A stretch of 64,000 nucleotides of DNA from Schaalia dentiphila ATCC 17982 (GTDB taxonomy: Bacteria; Actinomycetota; Actinomycetes; Actinomycetales; Actinomycetaceae), in the NCBI RefSeq assembly GCF_000154225.1, contig NZ_DS264586.1, positions 402,527 to 466,526 of the forward strand. Reading direction: 5' to 3'. Positions 1,167 through 50,321 of this stretch are shown one piece after another. A model generated the notes under the pieces. It made no database searches and was not told the DNA's origin. It saw nothing but the letters and a program-made list of their open reading frames with translations. The translations under genes were made by a program, and so were the position numbers. How positions within the stretch are numbered: position 1 is the stretch's first letter; every line of letters begins with the position of its first letter.

Positions 1167-1179
1167 GACGAGGCAGGGG
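1167..1179 (+). repeat. Dispersed 13-mer, A variant (GACGAGGCAGGGG)
   Basis: Copy of the window-wide word GACGAGGC(C/A)GGGG, lying between the divergently read ends of the MFS exporter and the NCS2 permease. No inverted partner is adjacent. Confidence 0.6.
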
Positions 1180-7952: not shown

Positions 7953-7986
7953 GAGGCCGGGACTGCTCAACGCAGCCCCGGCCTCG
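7953..7986 (-). terminator. glpK terminator containing the dispersed 13-mer
   Basis: Stem GAGGCCGGG...CTGC paired with GCAG...CCGGCCTC, 22 nt past the glpK stop. The right arm extends to an exact complement copy of GACGAGGCCGGGG at 7976-7988. Confidence 0.75.
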
Positions 7987-8007
7987 TCAATTTCTATGGG
8001 GCGACAA

Positions 8008-11746: not shown

Positions 11747-11793
11747 AAAGGGCCTCGGCCTCGTCCACGATGGGAACGAGGCCGAGGCCCTTT
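11747..11793. terminator. Bidirectional terminator between SorC regulator and lysS
   Basis: An 18-bp near-perfect stem (AAAGGGCCTCGGCCTCGT and complement) with an 11-nt loop and A/T-rich outer ends on both sides. It contains the GAGGCC-rich core shared by several terminators here. Confidence 0.9.
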
Positions 11794-13454: not shown

Positions 13455-13467
13455 GACGAGGCAGGGG
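13455..13467 (+). repeat. Dispersed 13-mer, A variant (GACGAGGCAGGGG)
   Basis: Exact copy of the A variant in the short gap between lysS and the PfkB gene. A partial inverted partner (CCTCGT) lies just before it, so a small hairpin can form at the end of the PfkB gene. Confidence 0.6.
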
Positions 13468-13481
13468 CCCGGTCGGGCCGC

Positions 13482-14369
13482 TCACGCACCCGGGAGGTCG
13501 GCCACGTAGGGGGCCGAGGAGGATCCGCCGATCCCCTGCGTGGAGTGTGCGGCGGCCGCGCAGGCGAGGGCGAGCGCCTCGGGCCACGGCATGCGGCGAG
13601 CTCGGCGCGCCCAGGCCAGCGCCGCCGAAAAGACATCCCCCGCGCCCGTCGTATCCACAGCGTTCACGGCGGGTGCTGGCACGCGCAGGATCTGTCCGTC
13701 GACGCACGCGATCACGCCGTTCTTGCCGCAGGTGACCACGCAGTCGCACTCAAAGGACGCGAACCACCGCGCGGCGTCCTCCACGGCGTCGGTGCGCGCG
13801 TAGGCGAGCGCCTCCTCCTCGTTGGGCGTGCACACGTCAGCCAGGTGCAAGGCCTCCAGGTCGGCCTCGTCCCAGGCCCCGGCCTCGTCCCATGCCGTGT
13901 CCGCCAGCACCCAGGTGCCGCGAGCGCGCCAGGAGGACACGACCTCACTGTTCGCGCCGATCCCCCGCACGTCCGCGAGCAGGCACCCCGGCGCGTCGCC
14001 TCCCAAGCGGGGCAACGCGGTCGTCCCGCGCGTGGTCATCGCGCGATCGCCGTCGAAGGACAGGGAGACGGTGACGTTTTGATCGCCCACGCGCTCGCAC
14101 GACGAGGTGTCCACGCCCTCGCGCGCGAGCATCTCATCGACGAACACGCCCATCTGATCGACGCCCACGCGGCTGTGCAGGCGTACCGGCGCACCCAGGC
14201 GAGCCAGCGCAATCGCCTGATTCGCCGCGCCGCCCGCGCACATGAGAGCTCCCTCCACCCAGGCCTCGCAACCCGGAACCGGAGGCCCGTCGAGGGGCCC
14301 CATGACGACGTCAAGGAACGTCGGACCGTACACCGCGAACTGAGATGCGGCGGGTACTCGAGATGCCAC
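13482..14369 (-). CDS. PfkB-family carbohydrate kinase (ribokinase-like)
   Basis: A 295-residue sugar kinase. The N-terminal GGAANQAIALARLG segment (about 46-59) and the C-terminal anion-hole and catalytic motif DTTGAGDVF (about 240-248, catalytic Asp in GAGD) define the PfkB fold. Substrates in this family include ribose, fructose, 2-keto-sugars and nucleosides; none can be chosen from sequence alone. The GTG at 14369 has AGGAGG at good spacing. It is divergent from the GH4 glycosidase gene with only 76 nt between starts, which suggests shared control and a role in phosphorylating a sugar released by that enzyme. Confidence 0.88.
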   Translation of the reverse strand: MASRVPAASQFAVYGPTFLDVVMGPLDGPPVPGCEAWVEGALMCAGGAANQAIALARLGAPVRLHSRVGVDQMGVFVDEMLAREGVDTSSCERVGDQNVTVSLSFDGDRAMTTRGTTALPRLGGDAPGCLLADVRGIGANSEVVSSWRARGTWVLADTAWDEAGAWDEADLEALHLADVCTPNEEEALAYARTDAVEDAARWFASFECDCVVTCGKNGVIACVDGQILRVPAPAVNAVDTTGAGDVFSAALAWARRARRMPWPEALALACAAAAHSTQGIGGSSSAPYVADLPGA

Positions 14370-15850: not shown

Positions 15851-15898
15851 GTGCCCCTGCCTCGTACGGACGAGGCCGACGCACAGTCTCAGGGGCAC
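15851..15898. terminator. Terminator between convergent GH4 and PIG-L genes
   Basis: Outer stem GTGCCCCTG/CAGGGGCAC enclosing a second stem CCTCGT/ACGAGG. The left side is the complement of ACGAGGCAGGGG, one base short of the dispersed 13-mer. Confidence 0.7.
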
Positions 15899-21379: not shown

Positions 21380-21392
21380 GACGAGGCCGGGG
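21380..21392 (+). repeat. Dispersed 13-mer, exact (GACGAGGCCGGGG)
   Basis: Single exact copy in the 132-nt gap between panC and the DUF2520 gene, without an inverted partner. Confidence 0.75.
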
Positions 21393-26906: not shown

Positions 26907-27869
26907 ATGGGTGCTCAAGCACCTCAGTGGCTGCTGACGTCTTTCGTTGACGCCATGCAGCAAATCGGCGCAACCGCGACCCGGTCAGACCTCGAAACCG
27001 AAAGCGTCGACCTCGCGGAGCGCTGGAGCGCGCCCGAACGCCAATTGCACAACGTGCGTCGGCTCATGAACACGCTCACCCATATCGATGAAATCTCGTC
27101 GTCCGCGCACGATCCCGACATCCTGCGTGTCGCCGCGTGGTACCACGGCGCCTTCCTCAACAAGGCCCTCGACATCAAGCTCGGCGGGTTCCAAGCGAAC
27201 TTCGCCTCCACCCGCTGCATCGATCACGCGCACAACCGCCTCACCAACCTCGGTGTGCCCGAGGAAGTCGTCGCCCGCATCGACGAGCTGATCGCGTTCC
27301 TCACGCGCCACCGCGCGCCTCGCACCGACTTCGACGCGCAGGTGCTTGTCGACGCGGACCTAGCGGTCCTGGCCTGCAGCCCGCAGGACTACAAGAAACT
27401 CCGCACGTCGCTACGCGCCGAACTCAGCGAGCTCAACGACCTGCAGTTCACCAAGGCTCGTATGGCACTCGTCAAGAAGCTCCTGAGCTACGAGACGATC
27501 TACCAGTCCCCCCTCGGCTCCGCGTGGGAGGACACCGCCCGCGCAAACCTCGAGGTTGAGCTCACCCGCCTCGAGCGCGAGAAGGCCCAGCTGTGCCAGG
27601 CCGCCCAGGCCGAGGACACGGACGACACCGAGGATGCGGACGACACCGACGAGGTCGTGGAGGACTCCACGACGACAACCGGCACGCTGATCATCAAGCG
27701 CCGTTCGATCAAGAAGTGCATCCCCGTTGCTTCCCCGGACGACGAGGCCACGTCCACCGGCGTCCTGCCCCGCAAGATCGAGGAAGACACCGACTCGGAC
27801 GAGGACGAGGAGGCCACCTCCTCCCTTGAGTCCGCCGTCGAATCCCTGGACCTTCCCACGTCCGACTGA
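26907..27869 (+). CDS. Degenerate HD-fold protein with acidic tail
   Basis: A 320-residue cytoplasmic protein. Residues about 30-220 follow the layout of COG4339 HD-superfamily phosphohydrolases: a LHN segment where these have YHN, AAWYHGAF where they have the HD dyad, then VDADLAVL and a late IYQSPLGSAWEDTAR. The HD dyad reads HG, so a metal-dependent hydrolase reaction is doubtful. Residues 225-320 are a disordered Asp/Glu/Thr-rich tail with one basic patch. The ATG follows AAGGAG. The stop codon is embedded in a near copy of the dispersed 13-mer. Family placement is by pattern only. Confidence 0.65.
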   Translation: MGAQAPQWLLTSFVDAMQQIGATATRSDLETESVDLAERWSAPERQLHNVRRLMNTLTHIDEISSSAHDPDILRVAAWYHGAFLNKALDIKLGGFQANFASTRCIDHAHNRLTNLGVPEEVVARIDELIAFLTRHRAPRTDFDAQVLVDADLAVLACSPQDYKKLRTSLRAELSELNDLQFTKARMALVKKLLSYETIYQSPLGSAWEDTARANLEVELTRLEREKAQLCQAAQAEDTDDTEDADDTDEVVEDSTTTTGTLIIKRRSIKKCIPVASPDDEATSTGVLPRKIEEDTDSDEDEEATSSLESAVESLDLPTSD

Positions 27870-27960
27870 CGAGGCCGCGGCTGTCTTTGCCTGCTCGGGC
27901 TGCTCAGTGCGCCCGTGGTCGGCGGCACCTCGCGCGTGAGTCGCACGGGTATACCTTGGG

Positions 27961-30344: not shown

Positions 30345-30600
30345 GACGAGGCCGGGCAGGACCGCGGGGCCTGGCTACAGCGCCCGTGGGTGGCGGCGGG
30401 GCCTGGCCGGGCTTCGAGACGACGCGCCGAGCGAAGCTCGCGGCGCGGACGGCTCACGGGCGGGCCGCCGCCCGTGGGCACACCAAGCAGTCCGGCCCGA
30501 CGGCGCGCGGAACACCAGGCGCTCGGAACACCAGCGGAGCAAGACGCAACCTAGGCATAACAAAGCCGCCCGGCCCCACAGGGGCCGGGCGGCTTAGTCA
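30345..30600. repeat. GC-rich intergenic repeat, copy A
   Basis: About 250 nt without a plausible gene. It opens with GACGAGGCCGGGC, contains a 9-bp inverted repeat around 30454-30475 that includes GGGCGGGCCGCCGCCC (30458-30473), and ends in the hairpin at 30563-30595. The same 16-mer and a similar closing hairpin recur at 41.1-41.2 kb, so these look like two copies of one dispersed element. Confidence 0.55.
30563..30595 (-). terminator. Terminator after LytR_C gene
   Basis: Perfect 15-bp stem AAGCCGCCCGGCCCC with its complement and a 3-nt ACA loop, 16 nt past the stop. Confidence 0.88.
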
Positions 30601-31276: not shown

Positions 31277-31987
31277 ATGGGTGAACACAATCCGCGTCCG
31301 TTGGCCGAGTTGATTGATCCGGGCTGGGCTCGGGCGCTGGCTCCGGTGGAGGGGCGCGTCCACGAGTTGGGCGCGATGTTGGCCGCTGAGGTCAAGGCGG
31401 GACATGGCTACCTGCCTGCGGGCACGGATGTTCTCCGTGCCTTCACGTACCCGTTCGACAAGGTGAAGGTACTGATTGTCGGGCAGGATCCGTATCCGAC
31501 GCCGGGGCATGCGATGGGGCTGTCGTTTTCGGTGCACCCGGGGGTGGCCTTGCCCAAGTCGCTCATCAACATTTTCCGCGAACTGAGCGAGGATATGGGC
31601 GTTCCCGCTCCGACGTCGGGTGACCTGACGCCGTGGTGCGAGCAGGGCGTGTGTCTGCTCAACCGCGTGTTGACGGTGCGCCCGGGTGCGCCCGCATCGC
31701 ATCGAGGCCGCGGCTGGGAGGAGGTGACGCAGTGCGCGATTGACGCCCTGGTGTCCCGGAAGCGTTCGGATGGCTCGCGCGCTCCCCTCGTGGCGATTTT
31801 GTGGGGCAAGGACGCGCAGTCGCTCACACCGCGTCTGGGTGACACGCCGACTATTGCGTCCGCCCACCCGTCGCCGCTCTCTGCGTATCGAGGGTTTTTC
31901 GGGTCGAAGCCGTTCTCGCGCGCAAATGAACTGTTGGAGGCACAGGGCGCGTCGGGCGTGGATTGGTCGCTGGGCGCTTCTCATTGA
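31277..31987 (+). CDS. ung: Uracil-DNA glycosylase, family 1
   Basis: A 236-residue base-excision repair enzyme removing uracil from DNA. The water-activating motif [13 protein letters not shown] (Asp71) and the DNA-intercalation motif [13 protein letters not shown] near residue 197 are intact. The ATG at 31277 has no Shine-Dalgarno and TAGGCT exactly 6 nt upstream, consistent with leaderless translation. Its stop codon TGA forms the first bases of a T plus GACGAGGCCGGGG element. Confidence 0.97.
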
Positions 31988-31998
31988 CGAGGCCGGGG
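31986..31998 (+). repeat. Dispersed 13-mer, exact, overlapping ung stop
   Basis: GACGAGGCCGGGG begins on the G of the ung TGA stop codon. No inverted partner follows. Confidence 0.75.
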
Positions 31999-35271: not shown

Positions 35272-35323
35272 GCCCTCAGCCTACCTGTCCCCTCCCCCAT
35301 CTGCGGCCACCCGCGCGGGGTGG

Positions 35324-35336
35324 CCCCGGCCTCGTC
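35324..35336 (-). repeat. Dispersed 13-mer, exact, minus orientation
   Basis: CCCCGGCCTCGTC on the plus strand, between the kinase start and the ATPase gene. No adjacent inverted partner. Confidence 0.7.
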
Positions 35337-35532
35337 CCTGAATCTGACGAGCAAACACACGCTGTCAATCCACCATGTGGCCCGAACTGTACAGCCGTGA
35401 GCAAGCATGCTAACTTCGCATTTAGTCGCGCGCGCGGAACGATCCGCGTTCGCACTCTGTGGGCGAAGACGCTCCACGGTCACCCCACTACGGATCGTCC
35501 GGCACGTACCTGCCGGTGGGAAGGAAAACTCC

Positions 35533-36663
<1,131 letters not shown>

Positions 36664-36693
36664 CGCATAGCGCTCACGCACAGCGATAATCGG

Positions 36694-36734
36694 CCCCGGC
36701 CTCGTCCACTCGTACCTCCAGGACGAGGCCGGGG
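36694..36734 (+). terminator. Terminator built from two inverted copies of the 13-mer
   Basis: CCCCGGCCTCGTC(C) at 36694-36707 pairs perfectly with (G)GACGAGGCCGGGG at 36721-36734 around a 13-nt loop, followed by TTT. Both arms are exact copies of the dispersed word. Confidence 0.9.
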
Positions 36735-36827
36735 TTTCGCTATACCCGCATGTGTTCTTGGCCGCGACTAGCGCAGGTGCCGAGTCGGAACTATGCGCAC
36801 GGCGCTCGAGATGAGATAATGGGAACC

Positions 36828-38090
36828 ATGGCTCTGGACATTACGGCGGCCGCAATTGACCCCGCCCTTTTGGACCTCCCGTGGGACGTTCCCCTCGAGG
36901 AGTGGCCATCCAACTTACTCGCGGCACTTCCCCGCGGTATTTCCCGCCACATCGTGCGCTTCGTGAACCTGTCTGGCCGCGTGCTCGCGGTCAAGGAGAT
37001 CGGTCCGACCGTCGCCCATCACGAATACGACTGCCTGCGTGACCTGACGCGCCTGGACGCCCCGTCCGTCCAACCGGTCGCCGTCATCACCGGACGCGAA
37101 AGCCCCGAGGGCGAAGAACTCAACGCCGTACTCATCACCGAGCACCTGCAGTTCTCCCTCCCCTACCGCGCACTCTTCTCCCTGTCGATGCGCGAGGACA
37201 CCGCGACGCGCCTCATCGACGCGCTCGCCCTCCTCCTCGTTCGCCTCCACCTCTTGGGCTTCTACTGGGGCGACGTCTCCCTGTCGAACACGCTGTTCCG
37301 CCGCGACGCAGGCGAGTTCGCCGCCTACCTGGTCGACGCCGAAACCGGCGAACTGCACCCAAAGCTCACCCCCGGCCAGCGCGAGTACGACGTCGACCTG
37401 GCCCGCACGAACATCATCGGCGAACTCATGGATCTCCAGGCCGGCGGTTTCTTCCCCGAAGACGCCGACCCCATCGACGTCGGCGACCGCATCCGCACCC
37501 AGTACGACCTGCTGTGGAACGAAGTAACCGCCGAGGAGTCCATTCCCAACGAGCAGCGCCAGTACCTCGTCAGCGAGCGCATTCGCCGCCTCAACGACCT
37601 CGGGTTCGATGTCGCCGAGCTGCATATGGCATCGGATTCGTCGGGCGAGCATCTGGTCATCCAGCCCAAGGTGGTCGACGCCGGGCACCACAACCGTAAG
37701 TTCATGCGCCTGACCGGGATGGACGTCGGCGAACACCAGGCCGCCCGCCTCCTCGCAGACATTGACGTGTGGCGCGCGACAAGTGGGCTGCAGGACATTC
37801 CCCTTGAGCAGGCCGCCCACCAGTGGCTCACCGACGTGTTCGCCCCCGTCGTGCGCGCGATTCCGCGCGAGCTCGCCGGCAAGCTCGAGCCGGCTCAGCT
37901 GTATCACGAGTACCTCGAACACCGCTGGTACATGGCCCAGCAGGCCGGTCACGACATTCCCGGTGAGGAGGCCGTCGCCTCCTACATCGAGAACATCTTG
38001 CCGTCCAAGCGCGACGAGGCCGTCCTCATCGAACCCGGGCCTGGCCGCGCCTCTATGCTCAGCGCCGAGGCGAACCCCGACCTGTGGTGA
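36828..38090 (+). CDS. DUF4032 domain-containing protein (kinase-like N-terminal half)
   Basis: A 420-residue cytoplasmic protein of an actinobacterial family. The first half resembles lipopolysaccharide-kinase-like folds: AVKEIG as a Lys/Glu pair, then FYWGDVSLSNTLF where protein kinases have the HxD catalytic loop, and a later VDAET like DFG. The second half (from about 210) is the DUF4032 region. Function is unknown. The ATG at 36828 has GATAAT 7 nt upstream and only a weak GGGA ribosome site; an ATG 9 nt earlier is also possible. A glycerophosphodiesterase gene follows on the same strand 38 nt on. Confidence 0.83.
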   Translation: MALDITAAAIDPALLDLPWDVPLEEWPSNLLAALPRGISRHIVRFVNLSGRVLAVKEIGPTVAHHEYDCLRDLTRLDAPSVQPVAVITGRESPEGEELNAVLITEHLQFSLPYRALFSLSMREDTATRLIDALALLLVRLHLLGFYWGDVSLSNTLFRRDAGEFAAYLVDAETGELHPKLTPGQREYDVDLARTNIIGELMDLQAGGFFPEDADPIDVGDRIRTQYDLLWNEVTAEESIPNEQRQYLVSERIRRLNDLGFDVAELHMASDSSGEHLVIQPKVVDAGHHNRKFMRLTGMDVGEHQAARLLADIDVWRATSGLQDIPLEQAAHQWLTDVFAPVVRAIPRELAGKLEPAQLYHEYLEHRWYMAQQAGHDIPGEEAVASYIENILPSKRDEAVLIEPGPGRASMLSAEANPDLW

Positions 38091-39016: not shown

Positions 39017-40222
39017 TTACGCCTCGCCCGCGCGGCGCGTGAAGCGCTTGGAGACGTGCTTGGCCAGGGACAGCTCGGCGATCGAGTCGACAACCATCAG
39101 GCCGCCCACGATGCCCGCGAAGCGCATCCAACCCGAACGCGGCGAGGAGGCGCGCACCGCGGCCACAAGCATGCCGGTACCGACGATGGCCTCAGCGGCG
39201 ACGGCGGCGTGGATGATCCACGGACGCTCAACGGCCACGGACTCGTAGGAGTTCCACAGGGGCTTCACGACCGACTGCGGCTGACCCATCATGATGTCGA
39301 CGCTGCGACCAATCGCGTTGGAGATACCGCGAGCCAGGTGCACGGAGACGCCCTCAACGTCCTCGAGGTCAGTGGTGCCCAGGAGGAAGCCGGCGACGGA
39401 GCCGTGCAGGCCGAGGGCGCGCACGACCTTCCACACCGATTCCTCGCCGGTCGTGGCCACAGAGGCCCACAGGGCGTCGGCGTCGGAGCCCGGGACGGCC
39501 TCGGCGATCTCCAGGAGGTCGAGACGGTCGCCCACGAGATCGATGACCTCGCCAGGCAGTTCCGACGTGCGGTCGTGTCCACCGGGGACGATCGCAGCAT
39601 CCATGCCCCAGTTGTGAGAGATGATGTGCTCGAGGTGATCGTCGGTGACCAGGAAGACCTGGAACTCACCGTCCGTCACGGAGAGAGTCACGAGCGGCAG
39701 ATCACCGAAGTTCCAGCCCTCCTTCTCGGCGGGCAGCTCAGCGAGAAGTGCGCGGTTATCATCGGCGAGCTCGAGGTCTCCGAGATCCACACCCTCAAGG
39801 GCCGCGAGGAGCGGCACGGACGAGGCAGGGGTGCGGCCAATCTCGACGATGCGAGTCGGGGTAGGTTCGACGGCGGCGGCCTCCTCCTCATCGGAGGGCC
39901 AGACCTTGCCGAGCGGCGACTCACCCTCGGGCAGGTGATCGGCCGTCGCGTTACCGATGCGCACCTCTGCGTCGAACAGGATGGCGAGCTCGTTGGCCAG
40001 TTCCGCGGGAGTCGGGCCGGGAACAACCTCGGTCGAGCCGGCGGGGACAGTCGCAACGCGTTCGTTGTCGACGGCAACGTTCAGGCCAAACAGCTGGGGC
40101 GAGGAGGGGAACCACTCGAGCTGGGCGAGGATCGAACGCTCCTTCAGCTCGCCGGCGACCACGCTGGGATCCAGATCGTGGCCGATGATCATGCCTTCAA
40201 TGCGAGTCCATTCCTGGGCCAT
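39017..40222 (-). CDS. Unrecognised protein with two C-terminal membrane helices
   Basis: A 401-residue protein I cannot assign. The first 110 residues are mixed alpha/beta with an acidic stretch. The centre (about 125-330) is a globular, Asp/Glu-rich region. Two hydrophobic helices lie near 332-352 and 365-385, followed by a basic tail KHVSKRFTRRAGEA. The MAQEW start has AGGAAGG upstream at good spacing, codon use is normal for the window, and it has its own terminator, so it is a real gene. There is no signal peptide, so most of the protein should be cytoplasmic. Neighbours give no clue. It carries an exact A-variant 13-mer at 39819-39831. Confidence 0.75.
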   Translation of the reverse strand: MAQEWTRIEGMIIGHDLDPSVVAGELKERSILAQLEWFPSSPQLFGLNVAVDNERVATVPAGSTEVVPGPTPAELANELAILFDAEVRIGNATADHLPEGESPLGKVWPSDEEEAAAVEPTPTRIVEIGRTPASSVPLLAALEGVDLGDLELADDNRALLAELPAEKEGWNFGDLPLVTLSVTDGEFQVFLVTDDHLEHIISHNWGMDAAIVPGGHDRTSELPGEVIDLVGDRLDLLEIAEAVPGSDADALWASVATTGEESVWKVVRALGLHGSVAGFLLGTTDLEDVEGVSVHLARGISNAIGRSVDIMMGQPQSVVKPLWNSYESVAVERPWIIHAAVAAEAIVGTGMLVAAVRASSPRSGWMRFAGIVGGLMVVDSIAELSLAKHVSKRFTRRAGEA

Positions 40223-44256: not shown

Positions 44257-44952
44257 TCAGGAGGTTTCCGCGCCCTCCAGACGCGACGCGTGCGCCCACA
44301 TAACGATCGCGGCAGCATGACCAACATTCATGGACCGAGTCGAACCGCGCTGAGTAATGGCGACGACACTATCGCACGCCCGGATCATCTCCTCGCTTAA
44401 TCCGGAAGCCTCGGATCCAAAAACGAGGCACGCGCGCTCCGGCAGCACCGCGCCTTCGAGCGCGACGGACCCCTCAACATTGTCGACGCCGACGAGTGTC
44501 AAGCCTTCCTTCGAGCAATGCTCCACGAGTTCACGCACTTCGGGACGGTGATCCACCGGCAGGTAGCGGTCGGTGACCATCGCGCCGCGTCGGTTCCACC
44601 GCTTGCGCCCCACGACGTGCACGCGGCGCGCACCCATGGCATTCGCCGTTCGCACAATCGACCCGATGTTGAAGTCGTGATCGAGATTCTCCACTGCCAC
44701 CTCGAAGGGCAGCGAGCGGGCAGCAATGTCCGCTCGAATCGCGTCCATCGTCCAGTAGCGGTAGCGGTCTTCGACGTTGCGCCGATCCCCCGCCTTCAGG
44801 AGCTCCCGATCGTAGTACTCGCCGACCGGCCAGGCGGCCTCCCCACCCGGCCACGGACCGACCCCGACCTGCCCGGACTGCGCAGCCCAGGCCTCGTCGT
44901 TCCCGCACGCGCCATCACGCGCGATGTCACACCCGTTTTCGAACTCGTTCAC
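44257..44952 (-). CDS. SpoU/TrmH-family RNA 2'-O-methyltransferase
   Basis: A 231-residue SPOUT enzyme that should methylate a ribose 2'-OH in tRNA or rRNA with S-adenosylmethionine. The knotted domain (about 85-225) has motif 1 DHDFNIGSIVRTANAMG, motif 2 LVFGSEASGLSEEM and motif 3 ITQRGSTRSMNVGHAAAI. The N-terminal 80 residues are a short basic/acidic extension rather than an L30e-like substrate domain. The GTG at 44952 follows AGGGTGGGA; a longer frame exists but overlaps the divergent gene. The target nucleotide is not predictable. Confidence 0.88.
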   Translation of the reverse strand: MNEFENGCDIARDGACGNDEAWAAQSGQVGVGPWPGGEAAWPVGEYYDRELLKAGDRRNVEDRYRYWTMDAIRADIAARSLPFEVAVENLDHDFNIGSIVRTANAMGARRVHVVGRKRWNRRGAMVTDRYLPVDHRPEVRELVEHCSKEGLTLVGVDNVEGSVALEGAVLPERACLVFGSEASGLSEEMIRACDSVVAITQRGSTRSMNVGHAAAIVMWAHASRLEGAETS

Positions 44953-46404: not shown

Positions 46405-46420
46405 TTCTCCGCATGCATTG

Positions 46421-46465
46421 ACGAGGTCGGGGCCGGGTTCTGCGTGAACCCGGCCCCGGCCTCGT
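46421..46465. terminator. Terminator between convergent pyrE and SDR genes
   Basis: 20-bp stem with a 5-6-nt loop; left arm ACGAGGTCGGGGCCGGGTT and right arm ending CCCCGGCCTCGT. Each arm carries a one-mismatch copy of the dispersed 13-mer. Confidence 0.9.
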
Positions 46466-46481
46466 ATCTGTGCGAGCGCCC

Positions 46482-47351: not shown

Positions 47352-50321
47352 TCATCGGGTCCGGATCAGGTATCCGGCTCCACCGCCGGCGAGGGCCGCC
47401 GGAATGACGAGCAGGACGAGCCAGTAGGGGCTCCATCCACCCGATCGGCCGGTCTCGGCGGCCGCAGCGATCGGTACGGCGCCCGATGCGTCGGCCGTCC
47501 CGTTCTCGGGGGCAGCCACGCCACCGCTCTGCGCGACTTCACCGCTCTGCGCACCGCCCTGGGGCGCAGCCGAGGGGCTCGCGGACGGGGTGGCCGCGGG
47601 AGCCGCCTTCGGGGCGGTCACGGGTGCCGAGCTGGCCGCACCGGTCGTTCCACTTGCCGCTCCGTTGCTGCGAGCAGCCGGAGCGCCGGTCGCGCTACCA
47701 CCGGTCGCAGCGGGGGCTGCGGTACGGGTCGCGCCGGACGAGGCCGGGGTTCCTGCGTTTGTCGCGGACGCTGCGGGCACTCGAACCGGGCCGCCAGTGG
47801 GAGCGGGAGACGGGAAGGGGTGCGGCATCGGTGCAGGATCCGCGGTCGGCGCCGGAGCCGGGTCCATCGTCGGTGCGGGAGCCGGAGCCGGGTCCGTCGT
47901 CGGTGCGGGAGCCGGAGCCGGGTCCGTCGTCGGTGCGGGAGCCGGAGCCGGGTCCATCGTCGGGGCCGGAACCGGAGCGGGGTCCACGCTCGGAGCCGGA
48001 GCGGGTGCAGGATCTGCGGTCGGCGCGGGGGCGGGCGTCGGCTTGGGTGCCGGGGTGGGGACCGGCTCAGGCACCGGGGAGGGCCCGGGCGACGGCGTCG
48101 GAACGGGCTCTTCCTCGACCGGTGCGGGCCGCTCATTGTGGTGTCCGGATCGGACGATCACCGTGAAGGACTGGGGCTCGACGAGGCTGCGTTCGCCGCT
48201 GCGTGCGCCCACCTCGATGCGGTAGGTGCCGGGCGCACTGAAGACCCAGTTGCCGTGCATGTGCGTCGCTTCGGTCGTGTGGACGAGGCCGTCGCCCTTG
48301 GACGAGTCGAAGTGGACCTTCGCGCCCGCACCGAAGGTGCCGCCCTGGAAGAATGCGACGCGGGCGCCTTCGGGGGCCTGCGCGAGGTGCAGGGTCAGGT
48401 CGGCTCCCTCGGGCAGGGCCGCGTAGTCGATGCCCTCAGTGGACAGGCCGGGCCACACGATGTCGCTGTTCTGCGTCTCGGGCAGCACGTACGTGGCGGT
48501 GCCCACCGGTCCGAGCACGTCGTAGCTCGCATCCGACAGGGAGGCGGGGCGCACGAAGCGCGCGTTGGGTGCGACCGTGAGGGTCGTGGAGCCGACAGTG
48601 CGCAGCACGGAGGTGCGCGCGTTGGTCAGGGAGTCATCCTTGACGGCCAGGCCGTAGGTGAGTCCGCCCTCGCCGCTCGCCTGGGTGAGGCGCACGTCCA
48701 GGTGTCCACGCGCGATCTCCACGGGGTCGCTCAGCAGGGACGAGGCCGGGTCCGGTGTTGCGTCGTTTCCGCCGTTATCGGGGGCGGGAGCAGGGGCGGG
48801 CGTCGGGTTCGGAGCGGGTTCGGGCTCTTCGGGGGCGGCGATACCGTCGCGCATCTTGAGCATCGCGGTGAGTCCGACGTGCGGGCCGACGGTGACGTCG
48901 GCGGCGTCAGCGACGGTCATGACCGCGTCGGAGAGGGGGTGGGGGCGCAGGATGACGCGCATGTACATGGGGTCGGACTGGCACACACCGAGGTCCTGGG
49001 TCTTCGTGTCCATGCCGCCCGCACCCAGGGTGCCTTCCATGGAGCACCAGGGGCTGAAATCCCACTTGGATTCGAGGAACTCGATCTTGTAGGTGGCGCG
49101 CAGGGTCGGGTCGTTGGCGCGCACCGTGGCGGTGTACTGGTCGGTCGAGCCGGGAATGAGGTCGTAGGAGACCTCGACGCGGCGCGAGGAGATCGGCAGG
49201 TGGTCGGGGTTCCAGACGGGTGCAGGGTCCGGGTTGGAGGGGCCGAGGATCGTGTCGGTGCCACCGACGGTAACGGGTTCGGTGTCCTTCTGGGAGTACT
49301 GAACGGTCTGCGAGATCCAGCGAGCCGAGGCAGAGTCGCCGGGAATGTAAATCGCCTGGACGGCAGCAGCATCGGCGCCCAGCAGCTCGGAGACCGTCGC
49401 TCGGCCACCGTCAACGGGAACCTCGGTCAGGAAGTAGCCATTGACGGTGATCCACGCGCGGCCCTTGTCGGTGGTGACACCCGTGTCGATCGTAATGTCG
49501 GTCAGGTGATTGTCGCCGGGGTGCTCGCGTTCGGCGTGGTGGGACAGGGTGAGCGTCGGGGTAGCCGCGTTGCCGTCGGTGCGTTCAGCGCGCGCCGCGT
49601 TGTACGCGGATTCGATGTCCTTGATAGTGCCTTCGGTGGGGTTCGCGCCGCCGACCTGCCAGACCAGAGGCGTGATCGGCGAGGAGTAGATAGCGGTGCC
49701 GTCGGCACTGCGAGCGGTCATCTTATAGTTCGCGACGTAGCGACCCGGCTGCGTGAAGGTCGTGTACAGGTGCGTGTGGCGCGGGTTGTAGACGCTTCGG
49801 TATGCGGTGTCGTGACTGGAGAGGAAGCGGTTCACGCTGTCGCCGTTGTCGATGAACATCTCCATGCGACCCGGGCCGTCGACGCTGATGAGGTCGAGCG
49901 TGTAGGTCTCGCCCTCGAACTTGTCGGTGTCTCCGATTTCGCCGGCTCCGAGGCCTGCCCAGATGGGCGTGTTACCGGGGCCAGGATTCTGGGGCGCAGC
50001 GTTCAGGACGGTACCCTCGGCACCCAGGAAGGCCAGGTCGGGGCGCTTCGCCGGGATGACGAGCTGCGACTTCGCCTCGTCTTTTTCGCCGGTGCCGGTC
50101 CACGCCTTGGGGATCCACAGAGCGGTCTTCTCCATCGGCATGTTGATGGTGTTCAGGGAGAAGCTGTTGGTGTCGTCATGCCAGACGGGGATGGGTGCAT
50201 CAACGTGCTGTCCGGTAACGATCCATTCCTTGTCCTGGTCGGGACCGGCCCACGCGGCGGCGGGGGTCAATGCCAGGAAGAGGGCGAGCGCAGCCGTGCT
50301 GATGCGTCGCAGGTGTGACAT
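47352..50321 (-). CDS. Large surface protein with TIGR03769-type repeats and C-terminal anchor helix
   Basis: A 989-residue exported protein. The signal peptide (about 1-25) ends AAAWA. Two copies of the actinobacterial surface-anchored motif are visible: HTHLYTTFTQPGRYVANY near 185 and THMHGNWVFSAPGTYRIEV near 687. These repeats accompany anchored-repeat metal ABC transporters in related genomes, and their paired histidines could bind zinc. Residues about 740-835 are Pro/Ala-rich with five or so 10-residue repeats (PAPAPTTDPA), a wall-spanning stalk. A final helix and RTR tail anchor it; no LPXTG motif is present. AAAAGG precedes the ATG at 50321. A Zur-like box lies 30 nt upstream. Confidence 0.85.
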   Translation of the reverse strand: MSHLRRISTAALALFLALTPAAAWAGPDQDKEWIVTGQHVDAPIPVWHDDTNSFSLNTINMPMEKTALWIPKAWTGTGEKDEAKSQLVIPAKRPDLAFLGAEGTVLNAAPQNPGPGNTPIWAGLGAGEIGDTDKFEGETYTLDLISVDGPGRMEMFIDNGDSVNRFLSSHDTAYRSVYNPRHTHLYTTFTQPGRYVANYKMTARSADGTAIYSSPITPLVWQVGGANPTEGTIKDIESAYNAARAERTDGNAATPTLTLSHHAEREHPGDNHLTDITIDTGVTTDKGRAWITVNGYFLTEVPVDGGRATVSELLGADAAAVQAIYIPGDSASARWISQTVQYSQKDTEPVTVGGTDTILGPSNPDPAPVWNPDHLPISSRRVEVSYDLIPGSTDQYTATVRANDPTLRATYKIEFLESKWDFSPWCSMEGTLGAGGMDTKTQDLGVCQSDPMYMRVILRPHPLSDAVMTVADAADVTVGPHVGLTAMLKMRDGIAAPEEPEPAPNPTPAPAPAPDNGGNDATPDPASSLLSDPVEIARGHLDVRLTQASGEGGLTYGLAVKDDSLTNARTSVLRTVGSTTLTVAPNARFVRPASLSDASYDVLGPVGTATYVLPETQNSDIVWPGLSTEGIDYAALPEGADLTLHLAQAPEGARVAFFQGGTFGAGAKVHFDSSKGDGLVHTTEATHMHGNWVFSAPGTYRIEVGARSGERSLVEPQSFTVIVRSGHHNERPAPVEEEPVPTPSPGPSPVPEPVPTPAPKPTPAPAPTADPAPAPAPSVDPAPVPAPTMDPAPAPAPTTDPAPAPAPTTDPAPAPAPTMDPAPAPTADPAPMPHPFPSPAPTGGPVRVPAASATNAGTPASSGATRTAAPAATGGSATGAPAARSNGAASGTTGAASSAPVTAPKAAPAATPSASPSAAPQGGAQSGEVAQSGGVAAPENGTADASGAVPIAAAAETGRSGGWSPYWLVLLVIPAALAGGGAGYLIRTR
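47737..47749 (+). repeat. Dispersed 13-mer, exact, inside the surface-protein gene
   Basis: GACGAGGCCGGGG on the strand opposite to the coding strand, in the Ala/Thr-rich tail. A near copy (GACGAGGCCGGGT) lies at 48739-48751 in the same gene. Confidence 0.65.
47835..48040 (-). repeat. 30-nt tandem coding repeats
   Basis: Roughly five to six 30-nt units encoding the PAPAPTTDPA-type decapeptide of the wall-spanning region; the middle units are nearly identical. Copy number is likely variable between strains. Confidence 0.85.

Follow-up and report, generated by a model that had tools for sequence, protein, structure and literature searches.

A recurrent word in the window

The window (the whole stretch of DNA analysed here, 64,000 nucleotides long) carries an MsiK-like ABC ATPase gene at 35533-36663, and two inverted copies of a short word follow its stop codon. 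Directly upstream of the gene lies the msiK RNA of Rfam (RF01747, 35472-35531, plus strand). A known RNA family was considered for the word and set aside, as this RNA and a tRNA were the only matches in the window at gathering thresholds. The word itself has 13 bases and comes in a C and an A variant. Allowing one mismatch, we found it at 19 sites in the window, namely 8 exact C-variant, 3 exact A-variant, and 8 one-mismatch copies (Table 1), compared with a mean of 0.86 sites and a largest count of 5 in 100 dinucleotide shuffles. By our own gene calls, 10 of the 13 window copies fitting ACGAGGC[ACT]GGGG are intergenic.

Every exact copy, C or A, that a preliminary description of this DNA had listed was found again. 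Its C-variant list lacked one exact copy, at 13877-13889 on the minus strand. The four one-mismatch copies it gave are present, one of them beginning at 46420 rather than 46421, and four others, at 11753, 15854, 27868, and 44886, had been overlooked. The chance expectation it offered assumed equal base frequencies and is too low for the GC content of this DNA, although the excess itself stands against the dinucleotide shuffles.

Table 1. Copies of the word in the 64-kb window, with their surroundings and the state of the 12-base core in relatives
Feature	Position	Strand	Context	Core in relatives
Word, A variant	1167..1179	+	intergenic	no counterpart aligned in relatives' stretches
Word, C variant	7976..7988	-	intergenic, ~20 bp past stop end (8008) of minus-strand gene	intact in 5 of 6 aligned (G058, G020, G024, G026, G011)
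One-mismatch word	11753..11765	-	within long hairpin, -46.2 kcal/mol	
Word, A variant	13455..13467	+	intergenic, 15 bp past stop end (13482) of minus-strand gene	
Word, C variant	13877..13889	-	inside gene	
One-mismatch 13-mer, A variant, 12-base core intact	15854..15866	-	between two convergent gene ends	
Word, C variant	21380..21392	+	intergenic, 50 bp past stop end (21442) of minus-strand gene	
One-mismatch word	27868..27880	+	overlaps stop codon of ORF 26907-27869	
One-mismatch word	30345..30357	+		
Word, C variant	31986..31998	+	intergenic (own gene calls)	
Word, C variant	35324..35336	-	intergenic, flanked by two divergent genes, away from gene ends	intact in G058, G020, G024, G026, G011; not in G031
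Word, C variant, left arm of inverted pair	36694..36706	-	30 bp after stop codon of MsiK-like gene	intact in 6 of 7 compared (not G007)
Word, C variant, right arm of inverted pair	36722..36734	+		intact in 5 of 7 compared (not G031, G007)
Word, A variant	39819..39831	+	inside gene	
One-mismatch word	44886..44898	-		
One-mismatch word, left arm of inverted pair	46420..46432	+	between two convergent gene ends	
Right arm of the 46420 pair; 13-mer with one mismatch, 12-base core intact	46454..46466	-		
Word, C variant	47737..47749	+	inside gene	
One-mismatch word	48739..48751	+		

Abundance and form across the genome

Throughout the 2,393,958-base genome of the window (G000), the 13-mer occurs in 252 exact copies (134 and 118 by strand) and its 12-mer core, ACGAGGCCGGGG, in 355 (187 and 168), while the reversed controls of both gave 0. 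The short word is thus genome-wide and far above what base composition would yield. In a 400 kb systematic sample evaluated with a fourth-order Markov model, ACGAGGCCGGGG had the highest z-score of all 12-mers occurring five times or more, with 61 copies against 0.66 expected. In 844 kb of the same genome it was counted 134 times, compared with a mean of 0.63 for 1999 permuted words; only three of these reach 15 copies, and each of the three overlaps the word when shifted along it. Shuffles, the Markov model, and the permuted words together rule out chance or GC bias as the source.

The core is found on average once per 6.7 kb, and 5 of 40 sampled stretches had no exact copy. Both strands are mixed within 20 kb stretches, and this mixing, together with the even strand counts, means that no polarity is seen. 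This bears on whether the word could serve chromosome maintenance in an orientation-dependent way, as a Chi-like recombination, FtsK-orienting, or segregation site. Such words are over-represented, short, and non-palindromic, but we rejected a strand-polar chromosome word on the even and mixed strand distribution, and the enrichment at gene ends described below also speaks against it. We regard this role as highly improbable.

The consensus of the word is AT-n-G-ACGAGGCCGGGG-C. Outside the core there is a weak preference for A at -3, T at -2, G at 0, and C at 13, and the flanks are otherwise information-poor; the preference for A(-3), T(-2), and C(13) is common to the two dialects described below (134 copies from G000, 61 from G011, and 128 from G015). 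The A variant is a minor form, with 4 of 58 copies in 464 kb. The consensus is sharp: the 14-mer GACGAGGCCGGGGC has 69 exact copies, and of its 42 single-base neighbours, two have more than 10 copies (20 and 15), two have exactly 10, and the rest have fewer. The conserved unit is limited to 12-14 bases, with nothing well conserved past the core.

A mobile mini-element of the REP or MITE kind, spread by transposition, would also be dispersed, restricted to a genus, and in part arranged as palindromic pairs. With only 12-14 bases well conserved and no conserved unit beyond the core, this candidate was rejected; moreover, aligned orthologous sites differ mostly by point changes, e.g., at 21381 and 31987 in G058. 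We find transposition barely credible as the origin of the copies.

Two other word families were noted in the 844 kb sample. A GTGG variant, ACGAGGCCGTGG, has 42 copies, 19 of them in one sense reading frame, so that part of these may reflect codon use (GAC GAG GCC GTG). A 12-mer family around CCCCGCTCACGCGGG, with about 98 copies, is probably a CRISPR repeat array unrelated to the word.

Copies at gene ends and inside genes

We evaluated where the copies lie relative to genes called with our own script. The G000 calls make 85% of the DNA coding and are an under-call: the first gene set missed comEA and comEC, and a second pass recovered comEA and still left comEC uncalled, so that intergenic DNA is over-counted. 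Under a third-order model fitted within each class, the coding DNA of the G000 sample would have 0.62 exact cores and has 51, and the intergenic DNA would have 0.12 and has 80. Codon use may account for some of the coding copies. Counting ACGAGGC[ACT]GGGG in the sample, 90 of 146 copies are intergenic and 56 lie inside genes, and 68 of the 90 fall within 100 bp downstream of a stop codon, a zone that makes up 29% of intergenic bases. In G015, whose genes were called with a third setting, 75 of 171 copies are coding, and 60 of the 96 intergenic ones are near a stop (23% of intergenic bases). The preliminary description had the word marking gene ends, which holds for the 68 of 146 copies that are intergenic and within 100 bp of a stop codon and fails for the 56 inside genes.

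With the first gene set, intergenic copies in G000 were sparse between divergent genes (11 versus 19.4 expected) and rich at convergent gene ends (23 versus 12). These placements bear on the idea that an abundant DNA-binding protein inside the cell, such as a nucleoid organiser or global regulator, binds the word, and that the dialects follow changes in this protein. The sharp consensus would fit such a site, as would the restriction to one genus and the one-base dialects, and one copy in the window, at 35324, is indeed flanked by divergent genes. For a regulator, however, scarcity between divergent genes and richness at convergent ends would be odd, and neither the 68 of 90 intergenic copies close to a stop nor the inverted pairs that follow stop codons would be expected. 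We consider this explanation unlikely.

Close pairs are nearly always inverted. Of the 23 pairs spaced within 40 bp in the G000 sample (GTGG variant included), 21 are inverted, each of them between genes and no more than 100 bp from a stop codon; G015 has 12 close pairs, every one inverted and intergenic, with 10 near a stop. The two pairs examined in the window fold strongly, that at 36694-36734 to a hairpin of -35.2 kcal/mol (z -3.53) and that at 46420-46466 to one of -51.7 kcal/mol (z -8.21). The former had been described as a terminator. Its inverted arms and hairpin are borne out, but a scan for T-run terminator hairpins from 35300 to 37000, limited to loops of 3-8 bases and so shorter than the loop of this pair, found none.

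The same place downstream of msiK holds two words in G058, G023, G020, G012, G024, G026, G011, and G010, and two with one arm mismatched in G031. Other relatives have different hairpins or none there; by eye, G006, G022, and G014 carry a GC hairpin without the word, which suggests that a hairpin at this place may be useful in itself. Could the word then be only a family of intrinsic terminator hairpins that share a stem sequence? The hairpins without the word, the strong folds of the two window pairs, and the fact that all 21 inverted pairs follow stop codons are in keeping with this. Against it, most copies are unpaired (20 pairs within 60 bp among 146 copies), 56 of the 146 are inside genes with exact coding cores far above expectation, and the example hairpin at 36694-36734 gave no T-run terminator in the scan of loops 3-8. 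A terminator-only family was rejected on the coding and unpaired copies, and we judge it very unlikely.

Persistence and dialects among relatives

To what extent the word is kept was examined in stretches of G011 that align to G000 at 79-88% identity. Here 12 of 20 alignable words were intact, compared with 22 of 158 neighbouring 12-mers (Fisher p 1.7e-5, with neighbours that are not independent of one another). Intergenic words were intact in 8 of 12 cases (neighbours 9 of 94) and coding words in 4 of 8 (neighbours 13 of 64). A further 9 of the 29 words had no aligned counterpart, 3 of these because no G011 stretch matched locus L043. The word is thus conserved above its flanks in this related species.

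Within the window, one of 13 words aligned in no relative. Intergenic window words were intact in 7 of 9 cases in G058 (flanks 62%), 9 of 9 in G020 (52%), 7 of 8 in G024 (30%), 5 of 9 in G026 (14%), and 6 of 7 in G011 (16%). They fared no better than their surroundings in G031 (1 of 8, flanks 9%), and G007 kept 0 of 2. The coding window words are too few to judge, with 2 of 3 intact in G058, 3 of 3 in G020, 1 of 2 in G024, 1 of 3 in G026, 0 of 2 in G011, 1 of 2 in G031, and 0 of 1 in G007.

Across 213 genomes of the family, the word is abundant only in this genus. Sixteen of its 35 genomes have at least 137 copies of ACGAGGNCGGGG (137-1344) and the other 19 have 2-120, while in the 178 genomes of other genera the highest count is 63, in a genome whose reversed control is 9. 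G058, which is marked as the same species, has 366 copies and is without a dialect split. For 78 genomes, we split the counts by the letter at position 7 of the 12-mer, as C/G/A (T was not counted apart).

The dialects differ by one letter: C in the odontolytica clade and G elsewhere. The C dialect is seen in G000 (355/8/7), G011 (418/8/6), G024 (426/7/4), G023 (391/7/8), G020 (375/10/8), G012 (363/9/7), G010 (267/3/4), G026 (254/5/9), and G031 (119/8/6). The G dialect is strongest in G015 (167/1001/140, with the G form split 500/501 by strand), where a genome of only 56% GC makes a GC-rich word the more striking; it is also found in G016 (31/157/41), G014 (14/135/24), G018 (15/108/29), G007 (12/93/27), and weakly in G029 (7/41/15). 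G013 is mixed (185/190/116), and counts are low and mixed in G009 (25/39/37), G008 (34/20/41), G028 (22/23/21), and G021 (18/29/22). Some genomes have a weak excess of another letter, e.g., A in G005 (5/4/31). In G007, the top 12-mer of a 100 kb sample was GACGAGGGCGGG, with 9 copies versus 0.6 expected. No comparable variant was found as another dialect word in 100 kb samples of G001, G006, and G022.

Repeats of other kinds were seen in two of these samples. Within 100 kb, the G006 stretches (L075-L079) hold 8 copies of ATTGGGGCAGG and 6 of TGGGGCAGGTTA, where at most 0.04 would be expected, and those of G022 (L065-L069) hold 10-11 copies of a long repeat that includes CACCATCAGGTGCATTGAGAC and is perhaps a CRISPR array.

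A tree of one gene, msiK, from 30 of the 35 genus genomes placed the C-dialect species in one supported clade (100/99), which also includes the word-poor G006 and G022. This tree is poorly resolved and does not group the G-dialect species into a single clade. For G006 and G022 (loci L124 and L125), msiK is 90-91% identical to that of the window and the adjoining genes 76%; their msiK may be recombinant, a single-gene replacement from the odontolytica clade.

A one-base dialect could also follow a change of methyltransferase specificity, if a methylation or restriction system of the genus acted on the word. Restriction sites in genomes are usually avoided rather than enriched, and such a system would leave the gene-end bias unexplained; we give this reading a very slight chance. 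The division into one-base dialects by clade strengthens the analogy to DNA-uptake sequences.

Transformation machinery of the host

The competence machinery of the host, known here from its genes, is present, with ComEC, ComEA, and a type IV filament. We detected ComEC in 33 of the 35 genus genomes, the misses being G022 (70% complete) and G029 (88% complete); these 33 also have an SLBB match (ComEA) no more than about 2.3 kb from the ComEC domain. In G000, a ComEA with SLBB and helix-hairpin-helix domains adjoins comEC; in G003, the SLBB match is 2.1 kb upstream of the ComEC domain. G000 has two Flp/Tad loci. By Pfam, L227 encodes a T2SSE ATPase, a T2SSF protein, a DUF4244 (Flp-like) pilin, and a Tad-like protein, and L041 a T2SSE ATPase and a TadE match below cut-off; further Flp- and TadB/C-like proteins at these loci were named by eye. 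N-methyl type IV pilins (PF07963), the class of ComP, matched in 0 of the 35 genus genomes and in 8 of 14 control genomes.

The presence of comEA, comEC, and the Tad ATPase did not separate word-rich from word-poor species among the genus genomes. The word-poor G003 (C/G/A 0/2/3) and G030 (4/0/1) keep ComEA, ComEC, and two T2SSE ATPases, so having the machinery is not enough to predict the word. In a comparison of pilus and com proteins, from loci some of which hold partial clusters, no candidate for a word-specific receptor emerged; these proteins simply diverge with species.

The small genomes G017, G019, G025, G027, and G032 have one strong T2SSE ATPase each, and a second Tad locus seems to be missing in them; the fragmented G018 and G029 likewise have one. 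The ComEC domain of S. odontolytica FDAARGOS_732 (NZ_CP046315.1) is 98% identical to that of G000, and the organism of the window is very probably S. odontolytica, a member of the Actinomycetaceae. ComEC domains 95% and 89% identical to that of S. odontolytica were found in records named Xylanimonas cellulosilytica (352_XCEL) and Sanguibacter keddieii (250_SKED; L208, L210), which are probably mislabelled Schaalia genomes.

Discussion

The word is likely a DNA uptake sequence spread through the genomes of Schaalia odontolytica and its kin, by which cells would recognise DNA of their own kind in natural transformation. Its copy number, sharp consensus, occurrence in both orientations, enrichment at gene ends and in inverted pairs, conservation above its flanks, abundance in just one genus of those surveyed, and dialects were computed directly. 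The preliminary description had compared the pattern to uptake sequences, and this comparison is supported by a genome-wide count far above the Markov expectation, by copies that extend through coding and intergenic DNA beyond the window and any one terminator family, and by the relatives that share the word.

How the label works can be proposed in outline. The word would be read at the cell surface by a protein of the Flp/Tad filament (Flp-, TadE-, or TadG-like) or by ComEA, and DNA bearing it would then pass ComEC. Homologous replacement would favour incoming fragments that carry the word, and this bias would let copies build up where they do little harm. Inverted pairs after stop codons may simply be tolerated, or they may serve as hairpins at transcript ends. 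Were the receptor to change its specificity, the letter at position 7 of the 12-mer would switch between C and G, and with it the dialect. On balance, we favour an independent, Gram-positive actinobacterial form of self-recognition for transformation, using the Flp/Tad pilus and ComEA rather than a ComP-type pilin, in which the C and G dialects would restrict gene exchange between Schaalia species.

The DUS of Neisseriaceae, as described in passages of PMC3630211, is like this word in being short, non-palindromic, of high copy number, and on both strands, with intergenic enrichment, inverted pairs at gene ends, and clade dialects. It differs in its unrelated sequence and in its host, here a Gram-positive actinobacterium; no N-methyl type IV pilin, the class to which ComP belongs, was found in the 35 genus genomes, and the copy number in the C clade is lower. 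For the two genomes discussed in PMC1939737, 1471 and 1965 copies are quoted, and the density in G000 is below these.

The word also resembles the USS of Pasteurellaceae, a different word in a different host, in having copies in coding and intergenic DNA on both strands and weaker outer positions (here A -3, T -2, and C 13) around a core; the USS likewise has an outer motif beyond its core. Cyanobacterial HIP1 is another very frequent short word. HIP1 is an octameric palindrome, unlike the 12-14 base non-palindrome biased to gene ends seen here.

In Micrococcus luteus, transformation needs Flp pili and the apparatus is of the same type, with comEA, comEC, and two tad-like loci, as given in passages of PMC6370729. 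The term 'uptake sequence' is absent from the main text of another M. luteus paper (PMC4322843) and from the competence passages of a 2023 Saccharibacteria paper in Cell (PMC10633639), which concern the epibiont. Passages of PMC3630211 and PMC1939737 name uptake sequences only for Neisseriaceae and Pasteurellaceae. Among the open-text matches listed, which leave preprints and most subscription papers outside, there was no earlier report of an uptake sequence in Actinomycetota, and we found no report of an uptake or transformation experiment in these species in the open full-text literature.

A self tag for DNA from kin is a device best known from two Gram-negative families. If our reading is true, this would be a third, independent origin, in a monoderm phylum and with a different pilus, and sequence-selective transformation would be something that evolves repeatedly. 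Its origin would also be directly testable, since one genus spans 2 to 1344 copies of ACGAGGNCGGGG and the dialect changes between relatives. In practical terms, the word could show how to transform S. odontolytica, which is described as the host of the Saccharibacterium TM7x.
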